Assembly: GCA_030550585.1 (NCBI GenBank)
Contig: JAUQPB010000003.1
Location: 36,333-100,332 of the forward strand
DNA from: Thermoproteota archaeon
GTDB taxonomy: Archaea > Thermoproteota > Thermoprotei_A > Sulfolobales > Ignisphaeraceae
DNA length: 64,000 bases
Reading direction: 5' to 3'
The notes below the pieces were generated by a model. It did no database searches. It was not told where the DNA came from and saw only the letters and a list, made by a program, of their open reading frames with translations. Of the stretch, positions 20,850 to 60,543 are shown in pieces. Positions within the stretch are counted from its first letter, which is position 1. Each line of letters starts with the position of its first letter. The translations under genes were made by a program, and so were the position numbers.

Positions 20850-21701
20850 TCACTCCTCTAAGTACTTATCCAAATCATCGCACGTCTTATTGGATGTTAT
20901 ATAGTTGTATATCTTGTCTGGCGATGCCGCTTCTAAACCAAGCTCATCTCTGAAAAATCTCACAATGTTTATTACATCTCTGTAGAGAAACATGTGTGCA
21001 TTTGGATGCGATATTTCGACGGCTTGGCTAACATCAATTATATAAACACTGCCGTTATGAAGCATAACATTGTATTCGCTTAGATCGCCGTGGACAAGTC
21101 CTGCGAGCCAGTACATTCTATGGATGTTCCTTACAATCTCAGCAAAAATCTTTTTGGCTTCCCCATAGTCTATCTCTCCAAGTTCAACAGCCTCTTTGAG
21201 TAGGGGTGCCCTAACACCCTCTGCCCCTATAAACTCCATAACTAGAACATTTCTGTGTACACATAGCGGTTGTGGGACAGAAACTCCAGCTCTATACATC
21301 TTCACTAGATTTGAAAACTCTTTTCTAGCCCATATAGCCATGAGCTTGTGTGTCGGGAGAGATGTTATCCACTCAAATCTCTGGTCACCCTTTATATACT
21401 TCCATATACTCTTCTTGAACTCTGCAGAGGAGGTTAGATAGATCTTCACAGCCAAATCCCTACCATTCTTATCTTTTGCCCAGTAAACCCTAGCCTCTTT
21501 ACCCGATGATACAACCCCCTTAAGCTTGTCTATACAGCCCCGGCTCTTCAGCTCTAGAACTGCTAGAACTGTTGACCTGTCGAAAACCTCTTCAACTGTT
21601 TCGAATAGATCGCTGTCCTTTATCCTAGGCTCTCTAACCCTCTTGACTATCTCTCTATCAATCTCTTTCTCAATGTCTTTGCCCATAGAGCGCACCACCA
21701 T
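20850..21701 (-). CDS. rio1: RIO1-type serine protein kinase
   Basis: RIO signatures are clear: the P-loop-like STGKEAxV equivalent SSGKEARVYWAKD near residue 66, the ATP-anchoring Lys in LAVKIY, catalytic loop HGDLSEYN near 200 and metal-binding IIDVSQA near 222. Of the RIO branches, the N-terminal region and spacing fit RIO1. The kinase/ATPase acts in late small-subunit maturation. It lies between aIF1A and the KH protein on the same strand. Confidence 0.92.
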   Translation of the reverse strand: MVVRSMGKDIEKEIDREIVKRVREPRIKDSDLFETVEEVFDRSTVLAVLELKSRGCIDKLKGVVSSGKEARVYWAKDKNGRDLAVKIYLTSSAEFKKSIWKYIKGDQRFEWITSLPTHKLMAIWARKEFSNLVKMYRAGVSVPQPLCVHRNVLVMEFIGAEGVRAPLLKEAVELGEIDYGEAKKIFAEIVRNIHRMYWLAGLVHGDLSEYNVMLHNGSVYIIDVSQAVEISHPNAHMFLYRDVINIVRFFRDELGLEAASPDKIYNYITSNKTCDDLDKYLEE

Positions 21702-21804: not shown

Positions 21805-22125
21805 TCAGACTACTCCCTCTATAAACTCTTTTGTTATTAAACCCATGTTGACTAGCTTCCTGACCTCATCCTTGCTATATTTGTATACAATATCCCCTTT
21901 GTCTTGCTGAAAGTCCCACGGCTGGACAAGCACCACATCGCCTCCAGCAAACCAAACCCTTCTCCTATATTTCCCAGGTATTCTACAAACCCGTGAAATA
22001 CCATCAACACATCTAACCTTTAGGAAGTCCGCCCCCACAAGCTCCTCAACAACACATAGAACCTGGCCTTCGGTAGGCAATGTAAGGTCTTTGGGAGCAC
22101 CCTCAACTTTTTTGTCTTTTGCTAT
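21805..22125 (-). CDS. eif1A: Translation initiation factor aIF1A, apparent AUA start
   Basis: An OB-fold protein with the aIF1A signature: VDGISRVCRIPGKYRRR, then VWFAGGDVVLVQPWD and KGDIVYKYS. It promotes ribosomal subunit dissociation and scanning-like initiation. The first standard start codon is TTG at 22080, which would remove the basic N-terminal tail. The frame stays open 17 codons further upstream, encoding AKDKKVEGAPKDLTLP, typical of the family. The next codon up is ATA at 22123-22125, placed 6 nt after AGGTGGTGA. With it the protein has 106 residues, the usual length. An in-frame TGA lies at 22132-22134. Confidence 0.85.
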   Translation of the reverse strand: MAKDKKVEGAPKDLTLPTEGQVLCVVEELVGADFLKVRCVDGISRVCRIPGKYRRRVWFAGGDVVLVQPWDFQQDKGDIVYKYSKDEVRKLVNMGLITKEFIEGVV

Positions 22126-22131
22126 AGCTTC

Positions 22132-22178
22132 TCACCACCTTCTCAACCTATTTCTGGGATTCTCTAGAGCTTATAAAT
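22132..22178 (-). promoter_or_regulatory. aIF1A promoter and Shine-Dalgarno
   Basis: On the minus strand ATTTATAAG (22170-22178) is a good TATA box just after the NMD3 stop. It predicts a transcript starting near 22148. AGGTGGTGA (22132-22140) is the Shine-Dalgarno; the same GGTGGTG precedes the CDF gene start at 53093 by 4 nt. Its spacing of 6 nt to ATA at 22125 fits initiation there, whereas the TTG at 22080 is more than 50 nt away. Confidence 0.6.
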
Positions 22179-22189
22179 CTAAGCTCTTC

Positions 22190-23047
22190 TCACCTTCTAG
22201 CTCTGTACTTCGAGAAATTCTTTGCGATGTAGTCTATGTGTATAGTCTTCAAATCGCCTTCCCGGCTCTTCAGCTTGAGCCATAGACCATCGAATGATTC
22301 CACAGTATAGGGCCTTCCATCAACAACTATGTAGTCTCCAGGCTTGAAGTTTAGTATCCTGATTGATATGTAGAGCCTAGCTGTTTTCTCTCCACTAGAC
22401 AGTCTTTTAACATCTCCAAAAGTTTCAACAACTCTTACACCAGGCCATCTCCTCTGAGCTATTTCAGCTATCTTCTTTGCTATTCCAGCATCTACCAAGC
22501 TAATGTCATAGCCGTTTTTAACAGGTTTAATATCTTTGATGAATTTGCCAAACTCGTTGCTGATACTATCCACAAACTTCTCCACCTCATCATCCTCGTT
22601 AACATATCTTATCTGGACAACTGCCTTGTGCCCTCCTCCAACAATTCTCTTGCAGTTTGGACATAGGGTTGGGCGCCAGACCATCTTAACACCAATTCTA
22701 TGCTCTATCCTGGCATTGCCAAGCTTCCCAAACAGTGTTATAATAGCTGTGGAGTCTTCATATGGCTTGAAATCAGCTCTAACATCATCTAGCAGAAAGT
22801 CCTGGGATGGTCTAAGCACATCGATTATATAGTCCTCTACAATGTCTGCGAGCTCTGGGTAGCTTCTAACACTAATCCACTTGCCATGAATGCTAACTGC
22901 GCCACAGGAGCGGCAAAAACCAATCTCAATTCTATCTATTTTTTCGACCAGCCCCCTGACCTCTATATAGCACCTTGGGCAGAGGCCATTTATTATAGGG
23001 GTTGTTGGAGACTCTTCAACACCGCATTTAACACAAAATCTCTTCAA
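22190..23047 (-). CDS. NMD3-family ribosome biogenesis protein
   Basis: The N-terminus has paired zinc knuckles (FCVKCGVEE, GLCPRCYIE, GFCRSCGAVS) and a further CPNCKRIVGGG near residue 150, characteristic of NMD3. The later part is an alpha/beta and OB-like region (RPYTVESFDGLWLKLKS). In eukaryotes NMD3 escorts the 60S subunit. The archaeal protein is thought to act in large-subunit maturation or subunit joining. It overlaps the DUF424 stop by 4 bp. Confidence 0.88.
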   Translation of the reverse strand: MKRFCVKCGVEESPTTPIINGLCPRCYIEVRGLVEKIDRIEIGFCRSCGAVSIHGKWISVRSYPELADIVEDYIIDVLRPSQDFLLDDVRADFKPYEDSTAIITLFGKLGNARIEHRIGVKMVWRPTLCPNCKRIVGGGHKAVVQIRYVNEDDEVEKFVDSISNEFGKFIKDIKPVKNGYDISLVDAGIAKKIAEIAQRRWPGVRVVETFGDVKRLSSGEKTARLYISIRILNFKPGDYIVVDGRPYTVESFDGLWLKLKSREGDLKTIHIDYIAKNFSKYRARR

Positions 23048-36323: not shown

Positions 36324-36832
36324 TGGCTTTTCGCCCACAGCAAATCCTCTACAGTGTCTATATCTCTAAGCTCTTTCGATTCCTCAAAATATATGTTTTC
36401 CCAAGTGCCTTTAGATCTCCTGAAGAGGGATATTCCAGACTCTCTACACACACCATCTTTGCAGATAGCCAGCGTCACCACATCAGCTTTGGAGTTGGTT
36501 ACTTTGTCCAGAAAGCTTTTGACTGCATCAACTGTTAGGAAGGGTATGTCAGCTGGCAGAACCAGTACCGGGAACCTGGCTTTCTCTAGTATGTAAGCCA
36601 AGTCAGTGACATAGTCTATCCCTGGACACTCAACAACATCGACCTTTTTCAGAGATTTGATTAAGGGTACATCCTCGCTTCTGGCACACACAACAATCCT
36701 TCCATCGATGCCAAGGCTTAGGGCAACCTCTAACGAGACCTCGATTAGCTTTCTATTGCAAATCTCAAGAAAATATTTTTTAACACCTCCAAGCCTCGAG
36801 CCCTTGCCGCCAGCCATGATTATAACATCCAT
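36287..36832 (-). CDS. cobY: Adenosylcobinamide-phosphate guanylyltransferase CobY
   Basis: A small nucleotidyltransferase with N-terminal MAGGKGSRLGG nucleotide loop, followed by KYFLEICNRKLIE and PADIPFLTVD near 98 (metal-binding Asp). CobY is the archaeal, non-orthologous replacement for bacterial CobU and activates AdoCbi phosphate with GTP. Position between cbiS and cobD and the size of 181 residues fit. Confidence 0.85.
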   Translation of the reverse strand: MDVIIMAGGKGSRLGGVKKYFLEICNRKLIEVSLEVALSLGIDGRIVVCARSEDVPLIKSLKKVDVVECPGIDYVTDLAYILEKARFPVLVLPADIPFLTVDAVKSFLDKVTNSKADVVTLAICKDGVCRESGISLFRRSKGTWENIYFEESKELRDIDTVEDLLWAKSQCGSMEGTEKLE

Positions 36833-59678: not shown

Positions 59679-59882
59679 ATGGGGCTGAAGCACAAAAAGT
59701 ATGTATATGTAGAGAGAAGCGATGGAGCCTATGTGAAGGTGAGGGTTTTAAAGAGTAGACAGGAAGATGAAACAAAATATATTGTTGTTGGCCCCAAGGT
59801 TAATAAACCGCCAAGCAATGCAACCATTATTAGTGAGAGCCAGCTACCAGACGCTGTAAAAACAAAACTGTATGAGGTTTAG
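59679..59882 (+). CDS. DUF5622-like small protein
   Basis: A 67-residue, beta-rich basic protein (KKYVYVERSDGAYVKVRVLKS, then GPKVNKPPSNATII) of an archaea-specific family, probably nucleic-acid or ribosome associated. A perfect Shine-Dalgarno GGTGAT (59668-59673) lies 5 nt before ATG 59679, which is preferred to ATG 59652. A C/D box sRNA begins within 15 bp of its stop. Confidence 0.7.
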   Translation: MGLKHKKYVYVERSDGAYVKVRVLKSRQEDETKYIVVGPKVNKPPSNATIISESQLPDAVKTKLYEV

Positions 59883-59887
59883 ATAGT

Positions 59888-59948
59888 AAAGCTGATGATG
59901 AGGTCGACGTTGTCGGAATAGTGACGAGGGGTCGATAAACTGAAGTTG
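59888..59948 (+). ncRNA. C/D box sRNA just downstream of the DUF5622 gene
   Basis: All boxes are in register: C ATGATGA (59895-59901), guide of 12 nt GGTCGACGTTGT, D' CGGA (59914-59917), 3-nt linker, C' GTGACGA (59921-59927), guide of 12 nt GGGGTCGATAAA, D CTGA (59940-59943). Both guide lengths match archaeal sRNP geometry exactly. No separate promoter is obvious, so it may be processed from the mRNA of the preceding gene. I could not identify the rRNA or tRNA targets by eye. Confidence 0.8.
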
Positions 59949-59967
59949 TTTTGAGAACTTGTAATAG

Positions 59968-60543
59968 CTACAACAAAAACAACTTTCTTCGGCAAGTGCA
60001 GTAATTAGGTAAATCTGCTAAACCTACCATTCCAGATTCTGTGAGCTGTCTTGCCTTGGGATTCGAAAACCCGTTGACATATATCCACACAGTTCTGCTA
60101 TGGTCATTCTCATCAATTATATGTTTGACGAATACTGGGCTCCAGCCCCTTATGGGAAAATCGAGTGTTGCTATAATGGTACAAGTGTCTAACTCATTTT
60201 CTAGTTTATTTGAAAGTGCTTCCAAGGTCGATGGATATAGATATGCATATACTATTGTTGGCTTCGGCTTTATGTTTGCCAGATCCACAGAGAAAAAGTC
60301 TTTGCATATAACATCAATTTTGTTCTCCATTCCATGCACCCTAAATGCTAGTTGCGCCACGTTACACAGAATCCTGTTGATCTCAATACATATTGTGTGG
60401 GCACCTGCCTTGGCAAACTCTAGAAGTACTCTTCCATCTCCGCAGCCAAGATCTAAGACAACGTCGCTGCTATTTACACCTAGCCCATACTTCAAATACT
60501 CTATTGGGGTTTTGGGAGATGGAATCCATGGAACTGTAGACAT
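59968..60543 (-). CDS. Class I SAM-dependent methyltransferase
   Basis: Motif I VVLDLGCGDGRVLLEFA near residue 28, the acidic end of strand 2 (CIEIN) near 53 and VICKDFFSVD near 83 define a Rossmann methyltransferase. No clear substrate motif: the DPPY/NPPY of N-methylases is absent and VYAYLYP stands in its place. Size 191 residues. It is divergent from the LysRS gene; substrate unknown. Confidence 0.78.
   Translation of the reverse strand: MSTVPWIPSPKTPIEYLKYGLGVNSSDVVLDLGCGDGRVLLEFAKAGAHTICIEINRILCNVAQLAFRVHGMENKIDVICKDFFSVDLANIKPKPTIVYAYLYPSTLEALSNKLENELDTCTIIATLDFPIRGWSPVFVKHIIDENDHSRTVWIYVNGFSNPKARQLTESGMVGLADLPNYCTCRRKLFLL

Follow-up and report, generated by a model that had tools for sequence, protein, structure and literature searches.

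A codon-conserved AUA start for the gene of translation initiation factor aIF1A in the Ignisphaera family, and its possible link to start-codon stringency

The gene for translation initiation factor aIF1A in the archaeal genome examined here (G000, 1.76 Mb) appears to begin at an AUA codon that is conserved as a codon among its relatives, is led by a Shine-Dalgarno sequence and follows a short leader; from the genome comparisons set out below we consider this assignment very likely. Initiation on AUA in the cell, with methionine as the first residue, would follow from it. The explanation that best accounts for the observations as a whole, and that we regard as probable, is an AUA-started aIF1A in which a weak codon has been kept for an output linked to the stringency of start-codon selection.

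Start site and leader of the aIF1A gene

The window, a stretch of 64,000 nucleotides (positions 36333 to 100332 of contig C3 of G000), carries the aIF1A frame on its minus strand, flanked by an NMD3-family gene that ends at 22190 and a RIO-family kinase gene that starts at 21701. The coding sequence (21805..22125) specifies 106 amino acids plus a stop. When read from ATA, the product matches the NCBIfam model NF003082, "translation initiation factor aIF-1A", with 138.9 bits (cut-off 108), and its OB-fold domain matches Pfam eIF-1a (PF01176) with 76.8 bits (cut-off 30.2). The NF003082 match begins at residue 3, and the N-terminal tail is therefore part of the aIF1A family. This basic tail (22066..22122, minus strand), which includes KDKKVEGAPKDLT, lies between the ATA and the OB fold, is typical of the family and shares 15 of 17 aligned residues with its counterpart in the related genome G005.

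The order on the minus strand is AGGTGGTGA GAAGCT ATA GCA AAA GAC AAA AAA GTT GAG GGT GCT CCC AAA GAC CTT ACA TTG. The ATA start codon occupies 22123..22125, and the frame is closed upstream of it by an in-frame TGA (22132..22134, minus strand). The TTG at 22078..22080, within the tail, is the earliest standard start codon of the frame, there being no ATG, GTG or TTG in the aIF1A frame between that TGA and the TTG. A sequence-only reading of this DNA had placed the ATA, the TGA and the TTG at these positions, and all three are confirmed in the sequence. An upstream standard start can be set aside as impossible in this genome, where the frame reads TGA, GAA, GCT, ATA. The other signals that the same reading described are likewise present: the Shine-Dalgarno sequence AGGTGGTGA (22132..22140, minus strand) stands 6 nt before the ATA, and a TATA-box-like TTTATAAG (22170..22177, minus strand) lies ~50 nt before it. 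The position of TTTATAAG predicts a leader of ~20-25 nt, and an A/T-rich element resembling it is found at a comparable distance in several members of the genus.

Conservation of the ATA codon across the family

The sample consisted of 18 genomes of the same GTDB family, in each of which one aIF1A was found and the tails of which were aligned. Such an alignment of sister genomes had been put forward with the AUA proposal as a means of checking it, and it shows the homologous codon to be ATA in 17 of the 18, distributed over five genera; G012 alone has ATG, at the same alignment column. The residue that follows the ATA is A, P, S or V, and after it comes the basic tail, as is the case behind standard starts in other families. 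The tail, which exists only if translation begins at the ATA, could be aligned in all 18 genomes, and this, together with the NF003082 match, bears out the suggestion that family-typical sequence is encoded upstream of TTG 22080. A functional-looking Shine-Dalgarno sequence precedes the codon throughout: the GGTGR core ends 4-7 nt upstream of the ATA in 17/17 cases, as compared with a background rate of 0.64% among 13,529 ATA triplets in 224 kb of this genome.

The start column also differs from ordinary isoleucine positions. It is ATA in 17/17 sequences, whereas the eight internal columns with at least eight isoleucines among the same aIF1A sequences contain 65 ATA among 100 isoleucine codons and are mixed in every case, counts that come from related species and are reported without a formal probability. 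The orthologous frames of G000 as a set use 595 ATA, 316 ATT and 159 ATC. An internal isoleucine residue would be expected to show ATT or ATC in places; the start column is ATA throughout, and it is therefore the codon itself that is conserved.

The protein might instead begin at an internal standard codon (TTG 22080 in this genome) and leave the conserved tail untranslated, a reading for which the position of that TTG ahead of the OB fold speaks here but which we consider highly improbable. The TTG is not conserved as a start, since many relatives have TTA, CTA or CTC in its place (TTA in G006, CTA in G009), and in 7/17 of the ATA genomes the OB core has already been reached where the earliest downstream standard codon occurs. 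The tail has furthermore the family-typical basic sequence, and its codon changes relative to G005, over the 17 residues aligned, are mainly synonymous (six, against two non-synonymous). In-frame ATG, GTG or TTG codons upstream of the ATA are absent from 12/17 of the ATA genomes and present in 5/17. Three genomes (G007, G008 and G011) have no such codon either upstream of the ATA or before the OB core, and in them the whole gene product could therefore come only from a non-standard codon.

The sequence-only reading had also offered a sequencing error as an alternative, in which one base in the A6 run (22113-22108) would separate the tail from the GTG GTG at 22138-22133. These codons do sit one base out of the aIF1A frame, and a base error or a programmed frameshift could in principle join them to it. 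The ATA is in frame in 17 separate assemblies, however; most relatives lack the A6 run and keep the frame nonetheless; and the frame of the GTG within the Shine-Dalgarno sequence varies by species relative to the ATA (nine genomes have it in frame 1, six in frame 2, two in frame 0), so that no single shift would join GTG to the tail. We rejected this alternative and assign it a negligible probability. A 5' intron was dropped as well because the Shine-Dalgarno sequence stands directly before the ATA in 17 genomes. The fixation of ATA in 17/18 genomes of the family, the Shine-Dalgarno spacing and the three genomes without a possible standard start together argue strongly for initiation at AUA, as had been proposed.

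Specificity for aIF1A and starts elsewhere in Thermoproteota

Other genes were compared between G000 and G005 by looking for coding sequence that is conserved ahead of all standard starts in a control set of 203 orthologous frames, 44 of them in the window and 159 on contig 4 (the stretch G000 C4 165-345 kb was used instead of G000 C3 100-260 kb, which is not syntenic with G005 C1 96-256 kb). Among these 203 frames no second gene with an ATA start was found, aIF1A being the sole frame that pointed to ATA; several other frames flagged by the comparison were shadow frames or near-identical DNA and are uninformative. The genes of the partner factors have standard starts in 16/16 family genomes, a conserved ATG for aIF1 (SUI1 family) and standard codons for aIF2-gamma. 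From these comparisons the ATA start is, as far as the sequences indicate, specific to aIF1A.

A dedicated AUA-reading initiator tRNA, or a wide use of ATA starts in this genome, would account for the fixation of ATA. The genome nevertheless holds a single initiator-type anticodon stem, with the anticodon CAT, and a search by anticodon-stem pattern, which could miss an unusual tRNA, detected no dedicated AUA initiator tRNA (ARAGORN read 30 of the 42 tRNA hits). When the absence of other ATA starts among the 203 frames and the standard starts of aIF1 and aIF2-gamma are considered as well, there is very little likelihood that either explanation is correct.

The comparison of 203 frames yielded one further gene without a usable standard start, in this instance with an in-frame TAG at codon 3 and not an ATA. 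This is an HMGL-domain gene (citramalate/isopropylmalate-synthase type, Pfam) on the minus strand at G000:C4 ~283798-285378 (L266), which starts GTG GTT TAG AAA TCC. The TAG occurs in 8/10 genomes of the genus and in G043 of another family (further loci L267-L270, L272, L273, L275 and L288); G009 has AAG and G001 has CAA at its position, and other families have AAG, ACG, GCA or similar codons. The catalytic DTTLRDG motif lies downstream of the TAG, and in G000 there is no standard start for ~60 codons past it. The gene is a candidate for UAG readthrough or another odd start. Within the window, a 57-codon intergenic frame without a standard start (59844-60017, minus strand) has ~85% DNA identity to G005 and resembles a shadow frame or a conserved non-coding stretch.

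A survey beyond the family covered the tails of aIF1A in ~120 further genomes, all of the phylum Thermoproteota, with CTG starts assigned by eye from the aligned tails. Among the genomes surveyed, the ATA start is restricted to the Ignisphaera family. CTG is the apparent start in 10/18 genomes of f7, which we take to be Pyrodictiaceae (L054, L055, L058, L057, L059, L063, L064 and L066 among the loci), in 2/2 of the g63 genomes read (f2; L093 and L125), in 2/2 f21 genomes (L160 and L161) and in 3/3 g13 (Desulfurococcus) genomes (L034, L042 and L100), although the assignment is less certain for the three g13 genomes, which have a GTG inside the Shine-Dalgarno sequence, and for G172 and G174, where an ATG or TTG stands in frame a few codons before the CTG. 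Many of the CTG-start loci have a Shine-Dalgarno-like GGTGA upstream, and in G162 no near-cognate codon other than CTG is available, since a stop occurs two codons before it. The start is TTG in 5/5 genomes read of f11, presumably Sulfolobaceae. The aIF1 gene starts with ATG in 18/18 genomes of f7. Judged by these alignments, aIF1A has repeatedly come to have weak or non-standard starts in the phylum, and its partner aIF1 has not.

A possible control role and its relation to known systems

Start codons in archaea, of which AUG, GUG and UUG have been described (PMC7531240), are selected by a complex of the 30S subunit, mRNA, aIF1, aIF1A and aIF2 with the initiator tRNA (PMC7531240, PMC6412873). 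The discriminator in this complex that resembles bacterial IF3 is aIF1, which destabilises complexes on non-AUG codons, and the bacterial homologue of aIF1A is IF1 (PMC7531240, PMC6237735). Toeprints show a more dynamic complex when aIF1A is present along with aIF1 (PMC6237735). Discrimination by the factor itself is thus known for aIF1, and for aIF1A the indications are indirect.

In the mechanism that we propose, the Shine-Dalgarno sequence would position the 30S subunit with AUA in the P site, where the single initiator tRNA, with its CAU anticodon, would pair with it except for a mismatch at the third position. The output of aIF1A might then depend on how readily the pre-initiation complex rejects near-cognate codons, a stringency that would be set by aIF1, aIF1A and aIF2 themselves. 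The likeliest sign of such a circuit is negative, such that a rise in aIF1 or aIF1A would make selection stricter and lower aIF1A. Yeast eIF1A has a basic tail that favours suboptimal starts (PMC5756025), and the opposite, positive sign would follow if the tail of aIF1A acted in the same way. The feedback, suggested in its negative form by analogy with infC, its sign, and indeed any control exercised by the codon, are inferred. We would put the possibility that AUA has been retained for the link it makes between aIF1A output and start-codon stringency at close to an even chance, with the ATG of G012 counting against a strict need, since ATA is evidently not indispensable.

AUA might also be the true start and merely set a low output for reasons of stoichiometry, without feedback, in which case any weak codon would suffice and the lineages could have drifted to ATA, CTG, TTG or GTG. 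The differences between families in the aIF1A start codon (CTG, TTG, GTG, ATG) and the ATG of G012 are in keeping with this explanation, which we consider a serious one though somewhat short of an even chance. It sits less easily with the fixation of ATA in 17/18 genomes and five genera, with the strength of the Shine-Dalgarno sequence, given that a weak one could also provide a low output, and with aIF1, a partner of similar size that always has ATG. Returning to control by stringency, we suggest tentatively a broader form of it, in which the aIF1A start codon in Thermoproteota is a built-in gauge of stringency that arose separately as AUA in the Ignisphaera family and as CUG in Pyrodictiaceae, Desulfurococcus and others, aIF1 having kept AUG, so that aIF1A output would balance the ratio of the two small factors.

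If the start codon does act as such a gauge, aIF1A would provide the first case in archaea of an initiation factor governed by a non-standard start codon of its own gene. Bacteria and archaea, whose discriminators are unrelated, might then have come to control an initiation factor in the same way. A conserved AUA start in a core initiation factor would also provide a natural test gene for the rejection of near-cognate codons by aIF1, aIF1A and aIF2, and it is of the type that is misplaced by gene finders restricted to ATG, GTG and TTG. We found no earlier report of this start in the open literature on aIF1A start codons and on non-standard starts in archaea, most subscription journals being outside this coverage. 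Bacteria already provide examples of this kind; what is new is the factor involved, the codon and the domain of life.

The nearest parallel is infC, the gene for bacterial IF3, which starts with ATT in E. coli and ATC in Streptomyces (PMC5472188) and which, like the aIF1A gene, encodes an initiation factor, has a conserved ATH start behind a Shine-Dalgarno sequence and has neighbours with standard starts. The sequence-only reading had suggested that the archaeal factor may use the same trick as IF3. The idea is plausible, but IF3 was the wrong counterpart: with IF3, codon discriminator and regulated factor are the same protein and the feedback is proven, whereas aIF1A is an IF1 homologue for which feedback is proposed and whose partner aIF1, the discriminator, starts with ATG here. 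The protein is aIF1A and not a member of the IF3 family, and it might at most work like infC. The autoregulation of eIF1 (Ivanov et al. 2010, cited in PMC6237735) likewise concerns a small start-selection factor with a poor start on its own gene; it differs in that the start is an AUG in poor context, the system is a scanning one and the factor is eIF1, not eIF1A. The GTC start of Streptomyces sigR, which is repressed by IF3 (PMC5472188), is similar to the aIF1A start in being non-standard, conserved and overlooked by gene finders, although sigR is not an initiation factor and its case has been proven by experiment.
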